A stretch of DNA of 53,619 nt from a virus. This document shows positions 3,025-11,560 of the stretch, in pieces (within the stretch, counting starts at the first letter, position 1; every line of letters begins with the position of its first letter). Made by a program: the position numbers and the translations under genes. The notes beneath the pieces are model-generated. The model was given only the letters and a program-made list of their open reading frames with translations, made no database searches and was not told where the DNA came from. The stretch lies in IMG/VR virus record IMGVR_UViG_3300020183_000101, positions 1 through 53,619 of that record; one strand, written 5' to 3'.

Positions 3025-5934
3025 TTACGTAACGATATTAAAAGTTCCAACCATAGCTGCGTGAATGGTGCATTGATAAACTAAAGTATTTGGGGCATCA
3101 AAAGGAACTGTAAATATTTGCGTTCCAGTTTGAGATCCACTCAAGAATGCAGAAGTATATGCAGATCCTCCACTGCTTGTGCGAATCGCAAATGGGTGAC
3201 TGCCTCCAGTAGAGTTTTCAAAAATGTAAGTAAATCCTCTGTGTAAATAAAGAGTTGGATTATCGGTGCTATTCAATACTCCAGGACCAGCGAGTCTATA
3301 TGCAGAAGCTCCACTTGAGGTTATATAGTATTTGAGAGCAAATCCAATATCTGTTCCATCACCAGTTGTAGTAGTGGATCTGAAAGAGGTTGCTGTTGTA
3401 ATACCAGAAACATTCAGTTGTTTAGCAAATAGTGTCGTCCCAGTGACCGTTGTAATACCAGCAAAGGTTGAAACACCAGAAACTGAAAGTCCACCAAGAG
3501 TGTTGATGTTATATGGAGTATTGATAAAGTTTGAATTCGTTTGAACCGAATTACCCATATAACCGTGATTGACACACTGATAATGTAAGACAATCGGTGT
3601 TGTGTCAGTGACAGTAATTTCTGTATAAGCACCAGCACTTCCAGCGGTTCCGTTTGGTGTTACATTAGTAGTGTATTGAGTTGTTTTATCTGCTTCTAGG
3701 TAAAAACGAAGTGGATGAGAACTATTACTACCGTCTGCTTGGTCAAAACGATATGTTTTTCCAGGTAACAGTGTAATAAATGGAGACTCTCTACCATCAA
3801 TAAGATATCCACTAGCAGATCCAGTTCCATAATAACGGTGATTTGTCGTCTTTGTAGCAACAGTGACAACAAATGTTTCTGTTGCAGAACTTGCAGCACC
3901 TACAAGTGCCTTGTAGTCAGAAAGTTGTCTAACGGTAGCAATACCAGTTACACTTAGATTATTAAATGTAGAAGTTCCTGATGTATTAATACCAGGAATA
4001 CCACCACCACCGCCAGGAAGATTAGTTAATCCTGATCCATCACCAACGAATGATGATGCTGTAACTACACCAGAAACTCTTACATTACCTTGAACAGTGA
4101 GTTTTGATGTTGGTTGTGTGCTACCAATACCCACATTTCCATTTGTATTATCACCACCAGTTACAGTAATTCTTTCAACAGCATTAAAGTCTGGAGTCCC
4201 AGTTCCAGAGAAAATTCTTACACTACTTTGTGCTGAAGTTGTTTGTGGTGCAATATAAAGATCTCCTGTTGCACTTGGAGAAATCTGAGAGTATGACTTG
4301 TCATCCAGAGATGCAACAATACTCGTATATTCATGGAACTCAAGTGGATTTGCTGCACTGACAAGTTCAAATCTCAGACCATCATTTAAAGATCCACCAC
4401 TAATATATGCTCCAGTTGTGCTGATGAATCTATTTGCTGTGGTAAGTCCTACGTTGATGTTAGTTCCTTGAATGTTAGAAATAGTTGCAACACCAGTAAC
4501 AGGTGAATCAATATTTCCAAAAAAACTTCCCGTCGCATGTCCCGATAAAGTTCCATAGAAAGTCGTGGCAGTAATTACACCACTTACATATTGATCACCC
4601 TCTATGCTCAAAGGTGATGATGGATATAAAGATCCGATACCAACTTTTGTGCTGGGATTAACTGCAAAGGTTCCAATTGCTGCGCCATCAGTTGGTCCAA
4701 CAATAATATTTGTAAGGGATCCAGATGCTCCACCCTCACCAATTAGAATGGTCTTTTGATAATCTGTACCATGAGCAGCAGTTGCAATTCCCACAAAAGG
4801 ATTTACGCTACCACTAGCATCTGCAATGACTGCAGTTGCATTTGCATGTGTAAATGCACCAGCAACACTCAGAGATCCTTGAAGAGTTGTAGATCCTGAG
4901 ATTGTTGCAGCACCAGATACTTGAGTTGATCCTTCAACCCATAGATTTGCTTTTGGATCTACAGTTCCAATTCCAACTTCAGATGAAATATATGCACTAC
5001 CAGTTACCTGAAGTCTTTGCTCAGGAACTAAAGTGGATGTTCCCGATCCTATTAGAACAGGACCGTCGATGAATGATGAAATTCCAGTTACTTCAATGGA
5101 TGGGAAGTTCTGAGTTGCCTGAGAAATTGCAGCGTTAATTGATGCTGCGGTTGTGCCATCAACAGAAGTGATATTTTTAAGTTCTCTTATTGAACTTAAA
5201 ACTTCAGTTGCACCAATGCTAATAGAATTTACCGTAGCAATTCCACTTACATTTAGTTTTTGTGTAGAAAGATCAGTTGTTGAAGTTACTCCAAGAGTTG
5301 TAATTCCAGTTACTCTGAGTTCTGTGAATAAGTTTGGAGAACTCTGAATTGCCGCTTCGATTGTTGCTGTTGTAGTAGCATCAAGTGAAGCAATATTTTG
5401 AAGTTGTCTAGCAGCAGTCAGGACAGTTGCTGCACCTATTGCAAAAGATCCTGTGGTAGTTACACCATTGATAGTCACATTGCCTAGAACTGATAATGTC
5501 GAACTTGCGGTTGTTGTCCCAATTCCAACATTACCAAGAGTATGAATACCAGTATTGTTCTGTGTCCATTTTGAAGAAGGACCAGTTGTTACAGTAACGA
5601 TACCTGAAGATACTGGAGTAACAAAGAAATTCTCTCCACCAAAATCTATGGTTCCCGCAACACCAACCAGAGAACCGCCATCGAGCACAACTACACCAGC
5701 ACCTTGTCCAACAATACCCGTGAGACCAGATCCGTCTCCAAAGAAAGCTCCTGTTGCTTTAAAGGAAGTTGCCGATACAATTCCAGTAAATTCACCATCA
5801 CCTTCTACACTAAGAGGAGATGTTGGAATTGTCGTTCCAATACCGACTTTTCCACTTTGAGTTATGGCAAAAGGAGATCCATCTCTGACCTCCAGTATAT
5901 TCACTAGTTTAGATAAGTCTCTAGCTCTAGACAT
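3025..5934 (-). CDS. Long tail-fibre protein with two C-terminal cupredoxin-like domains, 969 aa
   Basis: The N-terminal two thirds are tandem fibre modules of the type VGIGTT-P-x-S-x-L-S-V-x-G and ATSFxGDGSGLT (near residues 65 and 630). The last third differs. Two domains each show a His in 'SHP' (about residues 739 and 912) followed by Y-Q-C-x-x-H-x-x-M (YQCVNHGYM near 787, YQCTIHAAM near 955). That order and spacing (His, then Cys-x2-His-x2-Met) is the type-1 copper ligand set of amicyanin-like cupredoxins. The tail tip may therefore bind copper or use the fold as a beta-sandwich adhesin. A strong late promoter lies upstream. The fibre role is likely; copper binding is inference. Confidence 0.8.
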   Translation of the reverse strand: MSRARDLSKLVNILEVRDGSPFAITQSGKVGIGTTIPTSPLSVEGDGEFTGIVSATSFKATGAFFGDGSGLTGIVGQGAGVVVLDGGSLVGVAGTIDFGGENFFVTPVSSGIVTVTTGPSSKWTQNNTGIHTLGNVGIGTTTASSTLSVLGNVTINGVTTTGSFAIGAATVLTAARQLQNIASLDATTTATIEAAIQSSPNLFTELRVTGITTLGVTSTTDLSTQKLNVSGIATVNSISIGATEVLSSIRELKNITSVDGTTAASINAAISQATQNFPSIEVTGISSFIDGPVLIGSGTSTLVPEQRLQVTGSAYISSEVGIGTVDPKANLWVEGSTQVSGAATISGSTTLQGSLSVAGAFTHANATAVIADASGSVNPFVGIATAAHGTDYQKTILIGEGGASGSLTNIIVGPTDGAAIGTFAVNPSTKVGIGSLYPSSPLSIEGDQYVSGVITATTFYGTLSGHATGSFFGNIDSPVTGVATISNIQGTNINVGLTTANRFISTTGAYISGGSLNDGLRFELVSAANPLEFHEYTSIVASLDDKSYSQISPSATGDLYIAPQTTSAQSSVRIFSGTGTPDFNAVERITVTGGDNTNGNVGIGSTQPTSKLTVQGNVRVSGVVTASSFVGDGSGLTNLPGGGGGIPGINTSGTSTFNNLSVTGIATVRQLSDYKALVGAASSATETFVVTVATKTTNHRYYGTGSASGYLIDGRESPFITLLPGKTYRFDQADGSNSSHPLRFYLEADKTTQYTTNVTPNGTAGSAGAYTEITVTDTTPIVLHYQCVNHGYMGNSVQTNSNFINTPYNINTLGGLSVSGVSTFAGITTVTGTTLFAKQLNVSGITTATSFRSTTTTGDGTDIGFALKYYITSSGASAYRLAGPGVLNSTDNPTLYLHRGFTYIFENSTGGSHPFAIRTSSGGSAYTSAFLSGSQTGTQIFTVPFDAPNTLVYQCTIHAAMVGTFNIVT

Positions 5935-5963: not shown

Positions 5964-6638
5964 TTATCTCGCAGCATCCCAAGCACACTGAGCACGAATA
6001 CCATCTTGAAGAACATAGTGAAAAAAGATCTGATGATAATATAGACCTTCTTTTTCCACTCTTTTCCCATACCAAGTTTTTTCGTATTCTGTTGGCATTG
6101 GATCACGCCAATGCGGACGTTCGCACCCTTTATAAATCATACCGTCACCAGGTTCAAGATCTACAGATCTATGCTCACCATTTGGAGTTTTAATCCAAAT
6201 CGACCAAGGTTCTTGTAAATTAGTGCTGATATGAACAGTTACAGAGATTTCACACGCAGCTCTATCAGTATGTTTTGTTAATTCTTGTCCAGGAAAATAA
6301 AATCTATCGTAATAATAAGTATCGTATAATTTTCTTCCAATTATTTTTTCAAGTTTGATTCTAATCTGAGAATGAATTTCTCTGTATTGTGGATGATGGT
6401 ACCTGGCAAGAGATCCCTCCACTTGTTGTTCTACTGGGTCGTGATAAAATTTATCAATAGATCCAAAGTAATTTATTTGACCTCTTTCCATTGGGACTGG
6501 ATGATACAGTTCCTCAGGATCCCATAAATTTTTTACAACAAAGTATCCATCCCTATCAAAATCTTCATTTCTAGTCCATGAAGTTCCAGTGTTAATTCTC
6601 TCTTGAAAGAGAAGATCTTCTTCTGTCATTACATCCAT
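5964..6638 (-). CDS. 2-oxoglutarate/Fe(II)-dependent oxygenase-like protein, 224 aa
   Basis: The start is taken at the ATG at 6638, eight bases after the upstream stop and preceded by GAGG; an ATG at 6677 would lie inside the neighbour. The double-stranded beta-helix signature is visible: H123-T-D125 in 'LTKHTDRAACEIS', then 'LEPGDGMIYKG' and a distal His near 176 (ERPHW), with a basic residue beyond it for 2-oxoglutarate. Such enzymes hydroxylate proteins, nucleic acids or small molecules with O2, Fe(II) and 2-oxoglutarate. It is paired with another oxygenase just upstream. The substrate is unknown; its position between fibre genes makes a virion protein or a host surface component possible. 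Confidence 0.75.
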   Translation of the reverse strand: MDVMTEEDLLFQERINTGTSWTRNEDFDRDGYFVVKNLWDPEELYHPVPMERGQINYFGSIDKFYHDPVEQQVEGSLARYHHPQYREIHSQIRIKLEKIIGRKLYDTYYYDRFYFPGQELTKHTDRAACEISVTVHISTNLQEPWSIWIKTPNGEHRSVDLEPGDGMIYKGCERPHWRDPMPTEYEKTWYGKRVEKEGLYYHQIFFHYVLQDGIRAQCAWDAAR

Positions 6639-6645
6639 ATTCACC

Positions 6646-7266
6646 TCACTTCCAACGTGGTCCAACTGTCCATCCAACGATAGACTTTCTAATTCCTTTA
6701 GTTACTTTAAGAACCCTATGTTGTGTTCTTGAATCAAAAAGAATAATTGTTCCTTTCTTTCTGGGTGCAATATAAGATCTTCCAGATTCATCCAGAAGTT
6801 GAAGATTTCCTCCTTCATAATCATCTGGATCTGACAATTGAATTACAAAGGATAATTTGCGGACAAGTTCAATGTTTTCATTCAGAAAATCATTTGCAAT
6901 ACCTTGCTCTCTGTTGCCAACAGATTGTGGTTTATACATGCCAGCAACACCTGCATCATTATGCCAACCATAAAACTCCCCTTCACGATAGCGAGTAAAT
7001 TGAAGACTCTCGCCATCAATGTTCCTTAGATCATATAAAAAGTTTTCACGATTTGCTCTCTGTATATAATGCCAGAGGAATCCAGCAACCCAATGATTGG
7101 TTGGAATCCAGGCGTTTTGTGAATTTCTTCTATCTTTATTCAGTGCATCTCCATGAAGTTTGGAGTCTGCCATTTGATTTTCAAAGTTGTTGCTAACATC
7201 ACTTTCAATAACATCAACGATTTCTTTGGGAATGTCTGTATAGTACCAAATAGATTGAAATGCCAT
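6646..7266 (-). CDS. 2OG-Fe(II) oxygenase, prolyl-4-hydroxylase-like, 206 aa
   Basis: This is the clearest oxygenase of the set. It has W-H102-N-D104 (GWHNDAG), the core strand 'KLSFVIQLSDP' with 'YEGGNL', then 'KGTIILFDSRTQH183' and R193, giving the full HxD...H...R site with His-x9-Arg. These features match the P4H/PKHD (PiuC-like) group, which usually acts on Pro or other residues in proteins. The length (206 aa) fits a single catalytic domain. A sigma70-type promoter (TTGACT-17-TACAAT, 7292-7320) lies directly upstream, unlike the late promoters of the fibre genes. A substrate among the nearby glycine/proline-rich adhesins is an attractive but untested idea. Confidence 0.85.
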   Translation of the reverse strand: MAFQSIWYYTDIPKEIVDVIESDVSNNFENQMADSKLHGDALNKDRRNSQNAWIPTNHWVAGFLWHYIQRANRENFLYDLRNIDGESLQFTRYREGEFYGWHNDAGVAGMYKPQSVGNREQGIANDFLNENIELVRKLSFVIQLSDPDDYEGGNLQLLDESGRSYIAPRKKGTIILFDSRTQHRVLKVTKGIRKSIVGWTVGPRWK

Positions 7267-7291
7267 ACTATTTTAATTACACCTATAATTT

Positions 7292-7320
7292 ATTGTAAGA
7301 TACTTTTTTTGAATAGTCAA
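7292..7320 (-). promoter_or_regulatory. sigma70-type promoter for oxygenase genes
   Basis: On the minus strand TTGACT (7315-7320) and TACAAT (7292-7297) are separated by exactly 17 bases, each one base off consensus. The -35 overlaps the stop of the upstream gene. It suggests host-polymerase transcription before the late programme. Confidence 0.6.
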
Positions 7321-7856
7321 TTTTTGTAATGAAAGTTACCTGCAAGCACTGATCTCCCTTCGCACTTATTTTTAGGGACGCTATGGTAAATTCTACCAGG
7401 CATGATGATTGCCTGACCAGATTCCGCTTTAATTTTCTTTCTACTAGTATCTAGCACAAGAGGAGAGGAACCTTTTGGCGTATTTACATAGTAAATGAAA
7501 GAATAGGAAACATCATGTAAGTGTGAATATGTATAGTCTCCTTTATTATACACAACTCCCCAACAATCACAGAGAGATAATTTGAGAACTGCATCTGTAT
7601 TTACTTTATGAATATAATGGTGTTTGTAGATTAAAGTTTCAATCCAACCCACAACTTGTGCAATATATTCATCCATAATGAACCAATCAGTCATGTTAGC
7701 TTGAACATTTGTAGTTCTTTTTTGGGGATCATTCTTTGAAAGATTGACTATCCTCTCATGTATGAAAGGATTTAATAAAGATGCTCCAGGATGGTTATAA
7801 ATTCCTATTTTGTGATATTCTTTTACTAGGAAATCTAATTTATTAAAATTCAGCAT
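7317..7856 (-). CDS. Putative 2OG-Fe(II) oxygenase (2OG-FeII_5 type), 179 aa
   Basis: The start is the ATG at 7856 (MLNFNKLDFL); a GTG two codons earlier is less likely. The active-site pattern is H112-L-H114 ('YSHLHDVSYSFIYYVN'), then 'AIIMPGRIYH158SVP' and R168, so the first pair is HxH rather than HxD, as in the putative 2OG-FeII_5 / TIGR02466 family. The conserved 'SF/SGxxYVxxP' strand follows the metal motif. It overlaps the next upstream oxygenase gene by 14 bases, so the two are co-translated. The substrate is unknown. The family is often seen in cyanophages but its chemistry is not established. Confidence 0.75.
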   Translation of the reverse strand: MLNFNKLDFLVKEYHKIGIYNHPGASLLNPFIHERIVNLSKNDPQKRTTNVQANMTDWFIMDEYIAQVVGWIETLIYKHHYIHKVNTDAVLKLSLCDCWGVVYNKGDYTYSHLHDVSYSFIYYVNTPKGSSPLVLDTSRKKIKAESGQAIIMPGRIYHSVPKNKCEGRSVLAGNFHYKN

Positions 7857-8472
7857 ATGCACTCTTCAGACCAAATTTTCCAGTCAAGAAATAATTAAAG
7901 GAGATACAACGTCTTTTCTCTTTAGATTTAGAAACAGGAACAGAATGAAGAACATGTGAAGGGAATAAGACCATTGTTCCATCTGACACTTCTACTCCCC
8001 AATTTTTTGCATTAAAGATATTAAACTCTGATACGTTTGGTTCTAATGTGCAAGGTGCCCAGGTGGGAGATGATTGTGGGCAACTAAAATTTAATACTTC
8101 ACCGCTACCTTCAGGAACTCTGACATAAAAAACGCCACTAAAAAGACTATTGCTATGCAGATGATTAAAACACCAATCTTCTTTTTGATGATAGATTGCC
8201 CATGAACATGCGTGTTTTAAACCATAACTTTTATCAACTTTTAGAATTTCATACAAATAAAATTTTAGATGTGATTCCACAACATCTCTAATATCCGTAT
8301 AATCTTCTCTCAACAAAAGTGCCTGCTCCTTGGACATATATCCGTCCTGGTTATCAGTTCTTTCATATTCTAATTTATCAAGTCTCTCTACAAGTTCAGT
8401 TGGATCAAAGTGATCCAACTTTTTCTTATACACGGGAGAAGAAAATAAAGTATAAACTTCGGGGTGATTCAT
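7843..8472 (-). CDS. Putative 2OG-Fe(II) oxygenase (2OG-FeII_5 type), 209 aa
   Basis: N-terminal 'LFSSPVYKKKLD' is the usual opening of the TIGR02466 oxygenase family. The motif H104-L-H106-S-N-S-L-F-S-G-V-F-Y-V is the family signature, followed by 'GTMVLFPSHVLH176SVP' and an Arg pair at 187-188 for the co-substrate. It is a paralogue of the gene it overlaps downstream. The upstream region carries an extended -10 (TGCTATAAT, 8494-8502), which may be its promoter. As with its neighbours, the target is not known; a location between fibre and adhesin genes is the only clue. Confidence 0.8.
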   Translation of the reverse strand: MNHPEVYTLFSSPVYKKKLDHFDPTELVERLDKLEYERTDNQDGYMSKEQALLLREDYTDIRDVVESHLKFYLYEILKVDKSYGLKHACSWAIYHQKEDWCFNHLHSNSLFSGVFYVRVPEGSGEVLNFSCPQSSPTWAPCTLEPNVSEFNIFNAKNWGVEVSDGTMVLFPSHVLHSVPVSKSKEKRRCISFNYFLTGKFGLKSAYAEF

Positions 8473-8493
8473 GATTCAAAGATATTCAAATAA

Positions 8494-8502
8494 ATTATAG
8501 CA
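8494..8502 (-). promoter_or_regulatory. Extended -10 promoter candidate (TGCTATAAT)
   Basis: The minus strand carries TG-C-TATAAT, a perfect -10 with the TGn extension, 22 bases before the ATG at 8472. No good -35 is visible. It could serve the two overlapping oxygenase genes. Confidence 0.4.
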
Positions 8503-8511
8503 CAAATTTTA

Positions 8512-9309
8512 TCAGACAGTAACTGAAGTATTGTTAGTGTAAGTTGTGGGAGATCCATTGATAGATACGACAACTCTTTGCGGTTGTCCAGAATTTCCAC
8601 CATTACTATATGAGGGACTTTGTGCATTTTGTAAAGATGCTGGAACTGGAGATGTCAAGATAAAACCAGATCCTCCCCCTCCACCACCGCCAGTATTGCT
8701 ATCGAAATTAGATCCACCAGAACCTCCACCATAGTATCCACCACCACCTCCAGAATTAGAGTAACAAGTAGGAGCACCTTGCAAGAAACTTCCAGCAGAT
8801 CCTTGACACCCTCTTCCACTATGCCTACCAGCAGCACCGCCAGATCCACTTAAATAACCTGAAGTTGTTCCTCCACCTCCACCAGTTACGTTTGATCTGG
8901 GATTTCCTGCTACACCATTTAACCCCCCACCAGGACCACCACCTCCACCTGATTGAGAACCAAAAGCTCCACCACCACCTGCAATCAGGATAATGTTTCC
9001 TGGAGATACTGGACCAACATAAACTGCAGCATAGTTTCCACCAGGACCATCACCACCACCAAAACGAATATTAAAAGTAGTCCCAGGAGAAACTTGTCCC
9101 CAAGTAATAGAATTTAATCCACCAGCGCCAGAACTTCCAGGTCCACCACCAGCAGTTAATGCTACCGAAGTTCCTGATGTATGAAAGGTTCTCCAAGTAC
9201 CAGCATCATTAATATAACCAGTGTTTATAGTTCTCCAAGTCCCACCGTCATTTACATAAATTGCAGTTGCTGTTCTCCAACTTCCATTATCATTAACGTA
9301 AGCAGTCAT
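8512..9309 (-). CDS. Glycine-rich adhesin-like protein with three WRT repeats, 265 aa
   Basis: The first 42 residues are three 14-residue repeats of the form Y-[VI]-N-D-x-G-[ST]-W-R-T. The rest is a glycine-rich domain with runs such as AGGGG and SGGGGGYYGGG, interrupted by short hydrophobic strands (NIILIAGGGG, GSGFILTSP). This pattern matches ALK-type Gly_rich domains and the polyglycine-II sandwich of T4-like Gp38 adhesins (for example phage S16), which sit at the fibre tip and bind the receptor. The repeats may attach it to a fibre. It lies between oxygenase genes and a fibre chaperone-like gene. The adhesin role is likely but not proven. Confidence 0.7.
   Translation of the reverse strand: MTAYVNDNGSWRTATAIYVNDGGTWRTINTGYINDAGTWRTFHTSGTSVALTAGGGPGSSGAGGLNSITWGQVSPGTTFNIRFGGGDGPGGNYAAVYVGPVSPGNIILIAGGGGAFGSQSGGGGGPGGGLNGVAGNPRSNVTGGGGGTTSGYLSGSGGAAGRHSGRGCQGSAGSFLQGAPTCYSNSGGGGGYYGGGSGGSNFDSNTGGGGGGGSGFILTSPVPASLQNAQSPSYSNGGNSGQPQRVVVSINGSPTTYTNNTSVTV
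9188..9309 (-). repeat. Three tandem 42-bp coding repeats
   Basis: Units begin at 9188, 9230 and 9272, each opening GTTCTCCAA on the plus strand. They encode the 14-residue Y-x-N-D-x-G-x-W-R-T repeats at the N-terminus of the glycine-rich protein. The third unit is truncated by the start codon. Confidence 0.85.
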
Positions 9310-9321
9310 TATGTTCCTCCA

Positions 9322-10023
9322 TTATTCGTAATATTCTGTGAGTTTTGGTTTAGTTGGCCATGATTTTTCGTCAAAGAAATCAAATGTTCTAATGTTGGAT
9401 ACATTATCAGGTAAATCACGAAGAGCTTGTCTATAATCTTTTATTTTTTGACTTACTTTAACACCTTTCTCAAGGGCATAAGCAAAAACAAAGTCGGTTT
9501 GTTGAAGTTTTTTATCTCTTTCATATTTAAGATCTAACCAAATTTCAAAGTCTTTTACTTTTAATTCTTCTGGAGTTAAATCACGAACTTCATACTTAGC
9601 ATAGATTTTTTTGTTCTCTTTGTCAATCTCCCACTCTTTTTCAGAAAGAGTTGTATATGTCTGTTCGTAGGTTACTTTTGGTTCGTTGTAAATGTATTCG
9701 TAAATTGTGTAAGTTACGGTTACTTCTTCATCACCATGATCCCACTCTTCAGGTAGATTAGTATGAACTACATGATTGTGTGGTACTGTTTCTGGATAGT
9801 TTTCATGAAGTAGTTTCCATCCATCATTAACAAGAAGATACTCGTCAGATACGAGAGCACCGTTTAAAAAATACCAATTAGGATGAACTCTTGTAGTCCA
9901 ATCTGGAAGTAAATATCTTTTATTCCTCTGTTGTTCATTCCATTCAGCAGTTGGCTCTGGAATTTCATCAGGAATCCAATAATGCTTTTCTTCAGTTTGA
10001 GTTTCTTGTTTATGCCAACCCAT
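9322..10023 (-). CDS. Tail-fibre assembly chaperone-like protein, 233 aa
   Basis: The C-terminal third (about residues 160-233) carries a helix with 'YERDKKLQQTDFVFAYAL' followed by 'YRQALRDLP', a pattern typical of phage tail assembly chaperones (Phage_tail_APC-like), which help fold or attach fibres. The N-terminal part is Trp-, Tyr- and Glu-rich (WIPDEIPEP, HPNWYFLNGALVSDEYLLVNDG) and beta-like. It has no signal or membrane segment. It lies between a fibre gene (10059-10919) and the glycine-rich adhesin gene, as expected for a dedicated chaperone. It could also be a virion component itself. Confidence 0.6.
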   Translation of the reverse strand: MGWHKQETQTEEKHYWIPDEIPEPTAEWNEQQRNKRYLLPDWTTRVHPNWYFLNGALVSDEYLLVNDGWKLLHENYPETVPHNHVVHTNLPEEWDHGDEEVTVTYTIYEYIYNEPKVTYEQTYTTLSEKEWEIDKENKKIYAKYEVRDLTPEELKVKDFEIWLDLKYERDKKLQQTDFVFAYALEKGVKVSQKIKDYRQALRDLPDNVSNIRTFDFFDEKSWPTKPKLTEYYE

Positions 10024-10058
10024 TAGAATATTCCCTAAAATAACTAACTAAGATATAT

Positions 10059-10919
10059 TTAGTATTTGTACCAGATGTCTCCATTAGATCCACCAGCTGG
10101 GTTGCCACTAGAAAGTGTTCTATTTCCAAAGGCATTTTGAGAACTGGATCCAAAAGTAGTTGCAGTAATTGCACCAGCACTAAAGTTGCCAGATCCATCA
10201 CGAGCAACAATTGCTGATGCGGTGTTAGCACTCGTAGCAGTTGTAGCACTATTAGGAATAGATGTTAATGAAGCACCAGATCCAGAGAACGTAGTGGCAG
10301 TTACTGTACCATTTACATCTAATGCTGTTGATGGATTTACTTTTCCTACTCCAAGATTGCCACTTACATAAGCCCCACCAGTAACTTGAAGATTTTGATT
10401 TGCGGTTCCAGTTGCTGAAGTTGCTCCAATTAAAAACTCCCCAGTGGGGGCAAGTGTATATCTATATGAAGTTCCATCAAAGACACCAAATCCAGTAAAT
10501 CCATTAGATGTTGGATCTGCGTTAAAAAAGGTATAATTATTATTTGTCGTACTATTAGTGATTCTTAATGCAGCAGCTGCAGAATTTCTAATATGAACTC
10601 CATTAACTGCTGGAGATGGAGTACCAACACCCAAAACTCCTGTTACGAAAGCGCCTCCAGTAACCTGAAGTTTTGCTCCTCCAGTAATACCACTGGCACC
10701 GATGAGAACTGGACCATTACTAAATGTTCCAATTCCAGCGGTATTTACATCTCCAGAAAAACCTCCAGAAAAAGATGTTGCAGTTACAACTCCAGCAATA
10801 GTAACGTTGGTCACTGCAATTCCAAGTGCAGTAATATTACCAGTTACTGTGAGAGATGGAGTTGTTGGACCTGCCGTACCAACTCTGTTTTTTATAGTAT
10901 CAACATTAATCTGTGACAT
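10059..10919 (-). CDS. Tail-fibre-like protein, 286 aa
   Basis: It opens MSQINVDTIKNRVGTAGPT, the same head as the 250-aa protein at 12497 (MSKVQVDTIVNKAGTGAP), which suggests a shared attachment point. It continues with fibre modules (VVTATSFSGGFSGD, LQVTGGAxVxGxLGVG twice, ATTFSGSGASLTSI). The C-terminus ends in 'GGSNGDIWYKY'. Composition is Gly/Ser/Thr/Ala-rich with no Cys. The late promoter ATAAATAACTAAAAAA lies at 10943. It is a structural fibre; the exact place in the virion is not known. Confidence 0.75.
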   Translation of the reverse strand: MSQINVDTIKNRVGTAGPTTPSLTVTGNITALGIAVTNVTIAGVVTATSFSGGFSGDVNTAGIGTFSNGPVLIGASGITGGAKLQVTGGAFVTGVLGVGTPSPAVNGVHIRNSAAAALRITNSTTNNNYTFFNADPTSNGFTGFGVFDGTSYRYTLAPTGEFLIGATSATGTANQNLQVTGGAYVSGNLGVGKVNPSTALDVNGTVTATTFSGSGASLTSIPNSATTATSANTASAIVARDGSGNFSAGAITATTFGSSSQNAFGNRTLSSGNPAGGSNGDIWYKY

Positions 10920-10942
10920 ATCCTGGATACTACTTTTTTAGT

Positions 10943-10949
10943 TATTTAT
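10943..10949 (-). promoter_or_regulatory. Late promoter ATAAATA
   Basis: ATAAATAACTAAAAAA on the minus strand before the ATG at 10919. The leader continues TATCCAGGATATG, almost identical to the start region of the gene at 16264. Confidence 0.7.
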
Positions 10950-10951
10950 CC

Positions 10952-11560
10952 TCATTTTAAATTCAAATTCAATGATACAGTTATTCTCCTCTTATCTGAG
11001 GTATTTTTTTCAACTAGATGTGGGACAAATGATGGGAAAAATATAATATCTCCTTCTTCTATATCATCAAACTGTTGAATAGGTTGATACATTCTATTAT
11101 TAATTTGATTTGTCACAAATGTTCTTGTGACAACATGAGGATTAAAAAACTTAGGAGATTTATGCACTTGAGGATTATATTCAAGGAAATGAATCATTGA
11201 GAAATGATCTGGATAATGATCATGCCTTTCCTGATAATCGTTTTTATCATAGGCGTTATACCATATAGATCCAATTTCATAATTGGGAAGTTTATTCGTA
11301 TTCACTTGCATTACATGTAAAAATTCGCATATGATATCATGATAGAAATGTTTGTAAGCATTCATGACATTCCTATCAAGATGGTAACTTGTTTTTACAT
11401 CACAATCCCAGTTACTATTTTTACATTTTTCTCCAATATCTTTTTCAATGATCGGCACTAATTGTTTTTTTGCCCAATCATTGAAGTGTCTCTGCCTATA
11501 CTGATATTTTGTCGTATAAAAAGTGGTGGGAAAAAATTCCCATTTCATATTAACTGTCAT
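10952..11560 (-). CDS. Putative 2OG-Fe(II) oxygenase, 202 aa
   Basis: The metal site reads H113-D-H115 ('QERHDHYPDHFSMIHFLEY'), then 'EEGDIIFFPSFVPH181' with Arg 191/192 in 'DKRRITVSLNL'. This HxH...H...R set and the 'FPSxxxH' strand place it in the TIGR02466-like group. Residues 1-25 are unusually rich in Tyr, Phe and Gln. The start at 11560 lacks a clear Shine-Dalgarno; an ATG four codons in is also possible. It sits between two fibre-type genes, continuing the alternation of oxygenases with adhesins. The substrate is unknown. Confidence 0.75.
   Translation of the reverse strand: MTVNMKWEFFPTTFYTTKYQYRQRHFNDWAKKQLVPIIEKDIGEKCKNSNWDCDVKTSYHLDRNVMNAYKHFYHDIICEFLHVMQVNTNKLPNYEIGSIWYNAYDKNDYQERHDHYPDHFSMIHFLEYNPQVHKSPKFFNPHVVTRTFVTNQINNRMYQPIQQFDDIEEGDIIFFPSFVPHLVEKNTSDKRRITVSLNLNLK

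Follow-up and report, generated by a model that had tools for sequence, protein, structure and literature searches.

What would a pair of copper-site motifs be doing at the tip of a phage tail fibre? The question is raised by a gene on the minus strand of a 53,619-nucleotide stretch of viral DNA, here called the window. This 53.6-kb virus record holds genes for the baseplate, the tail and its fibres, so that a gene of the fibre type at positions 3025-5934 is no surprise; the open reading frame there encodes a 969-residue protein. Its residues 659-858 match PHROG 30742 (tail fiber, E 5e-79) and its residues 831-968 match PHROG 677 (gp9 connector, E 1e-40). Blue copper sites have been described in electron carriers and in oxidases. 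The initial annotation had proposed that the fibre ends in two domains, each with a His in SHP followed by YQC-x2-H-x2-M, and that these might be amicyanin-like copper sites or a cupredoxin fold kept as an adhesin.

Motifs and predicted fold of the fibre end

The motif positions were confirmed in the open reading frame, and both sets lie within the last 290 residues of the protein. In the first domain (D1), SHP occupies residues 739-741 and YQCVNHGYM residues 785-793; in the second (D2), SHP is found at residues 912-914 and YQCTIHAAM at residues 953-961. On the minus strand, the candidate ligands of D1 are His740 (codon 3715-3717) and the loop Cys787-x2-His790-x2-Met793 (3556-3576, with the Cys codon at 3574-3576, the His codon at 3565-3567 and the Met codon at 3556-3558). 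Those of D2, on the same strand, are His913 (3196-3198) and the loop Cys955-x2-His958-x2-Met961 (3052-3072, with the corresponding codons at 3070-3072, 3061-3063 and 3052-3054). The distance from His to Cys is 47 residues in D1 (H740 to C787) and 42 in D2 (H913 to C955), so that both ends of the range of 43-48 given initially are one residue too long. In cupredoxins, the upstream His stands about 38-47 residues before the Cys. Both domains have the type-1 ligand order His...Cys-His-Met at these spacings.

Could the motifs have arisen by chance? The string C-x2-H-x2-M appeared in 2 of 20,000 shuffles of the fibre protein, whereas the real protein contains it twice, each time with an upstream His, and a chance origin was rejected. 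The only two Cys and the only two non-initiator Met residues of the protein all fall inside these motifs. D1 and D2 are homologous to each other (hhalign E 7e-52).

D1 covers about residues 680-800 (3535-3897, minus strand) and D2 residues 855-969 (3028-3372, minus strand), the C-terminal end of the fibre. The AlphaFold models, built with locus alignments, are confident, with a pLDDT of 95.6 and pTM of 0.88 for D1 and values of 95.2 and 0.85 for D2. Both models show the Greek-key beta sandwich typical of cupredoxins, as their Foldseek and VIA matches indicate. In the VIA comparison with 2dv6, D2 scored Z 10.8 with an rmsd of 2.3 over 94 residues; for D1 the values were Z 9.2 and 2.5 over 97 residues. 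When D2 was searched against the PDB with Foldseek, 123 matches were obtained at E<=1e-3, and the best 50 of the 123 were all cupredoxins or multicopper oxidases/nitrite reductases; for D1 the same folds were found among the matches listed, with one exception. Rusticyanin, nitrite reductase, amicyanin, plastocyanin, pseudoazurin and laccases are among these proteins. The structure prediction and fold comparison suggested by the initial annotation have thus returned cupredoxins almost exclusively, with weaker matches for D1 than for D2 in both sequence and fold.

Do sequence profiles point the same way? The D2 profile (A2) matched solved structures of copper nitrite reductase (6hbe at 1e-5, 9cck at 1e-3) and amicyanins (0.015-0.15), and in the HMM alignment with amicyanin the phage H, C, H and M coincide with the amicyanin ligands. 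Judged from the alignments, the four side chains would lie close together in space. The D1 profile (A1) matched 6hbe at 9e-5. Pfam Copper-bind was the commonest weak family among alignment members (21 of 52 and 11 of 55), and the amicyanin family TIGR02657 was weakly matched by 15 of 55 members of the D1 alignment (best member E 4e-4). No match was obtained with Pfam on the 969-residue protein or with NCBIfam TIGR02657 on the window D1 itself. As single sequences, D2 gave weak matches to copper nitrite reductases among solved structures (E 0.19-0.36) and D1 gave weak matches to unrelated proteins only. Taken with the fold search, the profile searches against solved structures uphold the cupredoxin proposal, and the fibre is predicted to end in two tandem domains with this fold.

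Ligand conservation and the nature of the site

If the four residues bind a metal together, how constant are they among relatives? The set H, C, H, M is complete in 161 of 171 unique domains; this count and the one below are not of independent cases, since the domains share lineage ancestry. A contig end truncates one of the other ten, and each of the rest lacks at least three ligands; some of the ten are weak, partial matches. The patterns of the first scans included the ligands, and the scans were therefore repeated with queries ending before the first of them. All four ligands were again present in 90 of 92 complete unique domains (one 9-bit match was set aside as spurious), and each of the two exceptions had lost three. 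Retrieval bias toward the ligands was rejected on this ground, and the outcome that would have told against the copper site, a fold kept while its ligands are lost, was not seen as a rule. Neither among the 171 domains nor among the 92 complete domains of the ligand-blind set was there one missing just a single ligand. At the ligand His and Cys positions, synonymous codons are used in roughly equal shares (CAC/CAT and TGC/TGT) although the residues are constant, which argues for selection on the residue.

The exceptions bear on whether the domains might be metal-free. As an adhesin with a cupredoxin fold, the fibre end would bind nothing in the virion, and His, Cys, His and Met would form a packed, hydrogen-bonded core. 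Family members without ligands do exist: the first domain of P-HM2 gp7 is one, and three or four ligands have been lost together, with the fold sequence kept, in L043 (4004-4336), L175, L176, L182 (residues 722-830) and L330. Because these few domains keep the fold, a metal is not indispensable to it. The domain is also found in very large proteins, of adhesin size, in marine Bacteroidetes and Flavobacteriaceae. However, the loss of three or four ligands together and never of one fits a shared metal better than it fits four independent roles in packing. The length of the loop also varies while the ligands stay, as in S-SKS1 L187 and in L060 (3998-4339), where it is extended to C-x4-H-x2-M in otherwise intact domains. 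A metal-free adhesin is therefore considered unlikely.

Which metal would be bound? Two His, one Cys and one Met on a cupredoxin fold make up the type-1 copper set, and copper is strongly predicted for the sites of D1 and D2. A metal such as Fe, Zn or Ni would instead make the domains a counterpart of the iron-bearing HxH fibres. Cys/His sites are able to take Zn or Fe, but no His-x-His motif occurs at any His position of the 969-residue protein. T4 gp37 is reported to carry iron via HxH, as are candidate HxH motifs in marine phage tails (PMC11705849). This is the nearest published idea; HxH fibres such as T4 gp37 and that of alterophage R22Y have the notion of a metal-carrying fibre in common with D1 and D2 but differ in ligands and fold. 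A metal other than copper is judged very improbable.

Relation to known copper proteins and a possible role

To which cupredoxins are the domains closest? Amicyanin is a stand-alone periplasmic electron carrier. The likeness to it that was first proposed stands for the copper loop, since both phage domains share C-x2-H-x2-M with amicyanin (TIGR02657), and does not extend to the rest: amicyanin 1id2 has Asn after the first His (HN) where D1 and D2 have Pro, D1 has insertions, both domains sit on a tail protein, and the overall structure is nearer to nitrite reductase. The best structural match of both domains is the blue-copper N-terminal domain of the Hyphomicrobium three-domain nitrite reductase (2dv6, 6tfo), at 16-21% identity; that domain is part of an enzyme. 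The Pro after the first His is found also in multicopper oxidase 6vox from the same profile search, and the site, judged from sequence, thus combines a His strand like that of an oxidase with a Cys loop like that of amicyanin.

The plastocyanin loop is C-x2-H-x4-M, and it is absent from D1 and D2, which both have C-x2-H-x2-M. A host-derived plastocyanin carried as an auxiliary gene was rejected: its loop is another one, the nearest relatives are not the same, and the phage domain occurs in fusion with structural proteins. The C-terminus of cyanophage gp9 (PHROG 677) is of the D2 type, and the four ligands are present in the gp9 proteins L178, L191, L192, L193, L186 and L194. By contrast, the window protein lacks the N-terminal part of gp9 and matches PHROG 677 only at profile positions 269-409 of 412. 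By predicted fold and ligands, D1 and D2 are cupredoxins; on stricter criteria they are neither amicyanins nor plastocyanins, and the fibre protein is no gp9 despite having the C-terminal domain of gp9 in common.

A copper-loaded structural or adhesion module at the end of the fibre is favoured, with a probability of roughly 60%. The domains would belong to an undescribed family in which each holds a complete type-1 set in a short amicyanin-type loop and binds one copper ion. Free copper is scarce at the site of phage assembly, which counts against this explanation; the ion would probably be taken up in the periplasm, the lysate or the water, since the cytoplasm is poor in copper. Bound there, it could lock the loops that carry the ligands, at one end of the sandwich, stiffening a compact domain and shaping its exposed face. 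The domain would be a module with a structural or adhesive task, placed at the end of the fibre and, in relatives, at the joint between baseplate and fibre (gp9). The copper may serve to stabilise the domain or to recognise a surface; a part in electron transfer is possible and less likely.

A redox-active copper domain would exchange electrons with a partner on the host surface or in the periplasm, for example as an infection trigger or sensor. Among solved structures, the nearest folds belong to copper proteins that transfer electrons or catalyse reactions, and one relative carries a PetE annotation. However, neither a partner gene nor a conserved docking face was identified, and no known tail step requires electron transfer. 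A structural or adhesive role is preferred because the module occurs here and there in many structural proteins and has no evident partner; the redox reading is a poor prospect. A broader proposal is that virions of most T4-like cyanophages, and of some SAR11 and Methylophilales phages, have a number of type-1 copper centres both in the fibres and where these join the baseplate, and that attachment or the triggering of infection involves this copper, either through its redox state or through how available it is at the host surface. This is speculative and, on balance, doubtful.

If copper is bound by a module of this kind, it would join the short list of virion metals, and aquatic phages would gain a role in trace-metal chemistry beside that of the iron hypothesis.

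Relatives and neighbouring genes

How widespread is the domain? A tblastn search with D2 found 325 phage records, most of them from phages of Synechococcus and Prochlorococcus, where the protein bears the annotation gp9 baseplate wedge tail fibre connector; the S-SSM5 gp9 copy of D2 as query found 349. Relatives of D2 thus form the end of gp9 connectors and of further virion proteins in about 325-350 phage records, the majority from cyanophages. With D1 as query the count was 58, phages of SAR11 and Methylophilales among them. In the records examined, the domain is located at the gp9 C-terminus and in tail fibres, gp7 and other virion structural proteins. Many tail proteins of cyanophages in a viral structure library have the D2-type fold. 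For the N-terminal part of cyanophage gp9, 828 records match, enterobacterial T4-like phages included, while the cupredoxin end is hardly found outside cyanophages and other phages of aquatic origin. This domain accounts for the C-terminus of cyanophage gp9, where database profiles name none. Many further copies are present in viral contigs, with the D1-D2 tandem repeated in L015, L016, L084 and L085, and the domain is found also in large proteins of marine bacteria and an archaeal bin.

These data point to a real and widespread family of virion cupredoxins that is apparently undescribed. Its novelty is not proven: a literature search on cupredoxins with phage tails or virions, which covered openly accessible published papers, found no relevant one.

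In phage S-SCSM2R, a 168-residue stand-alone ORF annotated as PetE (L161, 4836-5342) adjoins subtilase-type and FhaB-type genes, in a virion-like gene neighbourhood. It is probably a virion part and not a photosynthetic plastocyanin, a caution for reading such labels. In BFVD, A0A481Z6J5, A0A481YWX9 and others match the D2 fold at E values of about 1e-7 to 1e-6; these are 'Beta-sandwich' proteins from metagenomic giant viruses that resemble pithoviruses and marseilleviruses.

Several neighbours of the fibre gene are encoded on the same strand. The gene at 837-1235 specifies a 132-residue protein with a signal-peptide-like start and no Pfam match, and its core is strongly conserved in 71 viral contigs and one Synechococcus phage (DSL-LC03). 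Its product is read as an exported phage protein; a copper-binding His at the mature N-terminus was rejected, since most relatives have Gln there. The 145-residue protein encoded at 1478-1915 has an HELWH zinc-peptidase-like motif, matches PHROG 10499 (function unassigned) and, weakly, SprT-like and Peptidase_M76 families. The fibre region also holds several 2OG-Fe(II) oxygenase genes, at 5964-11560. The PHROG label of 5964-6677, 'ferrochelatase', may be a mislabel of the adjoining oxygenase-like family.
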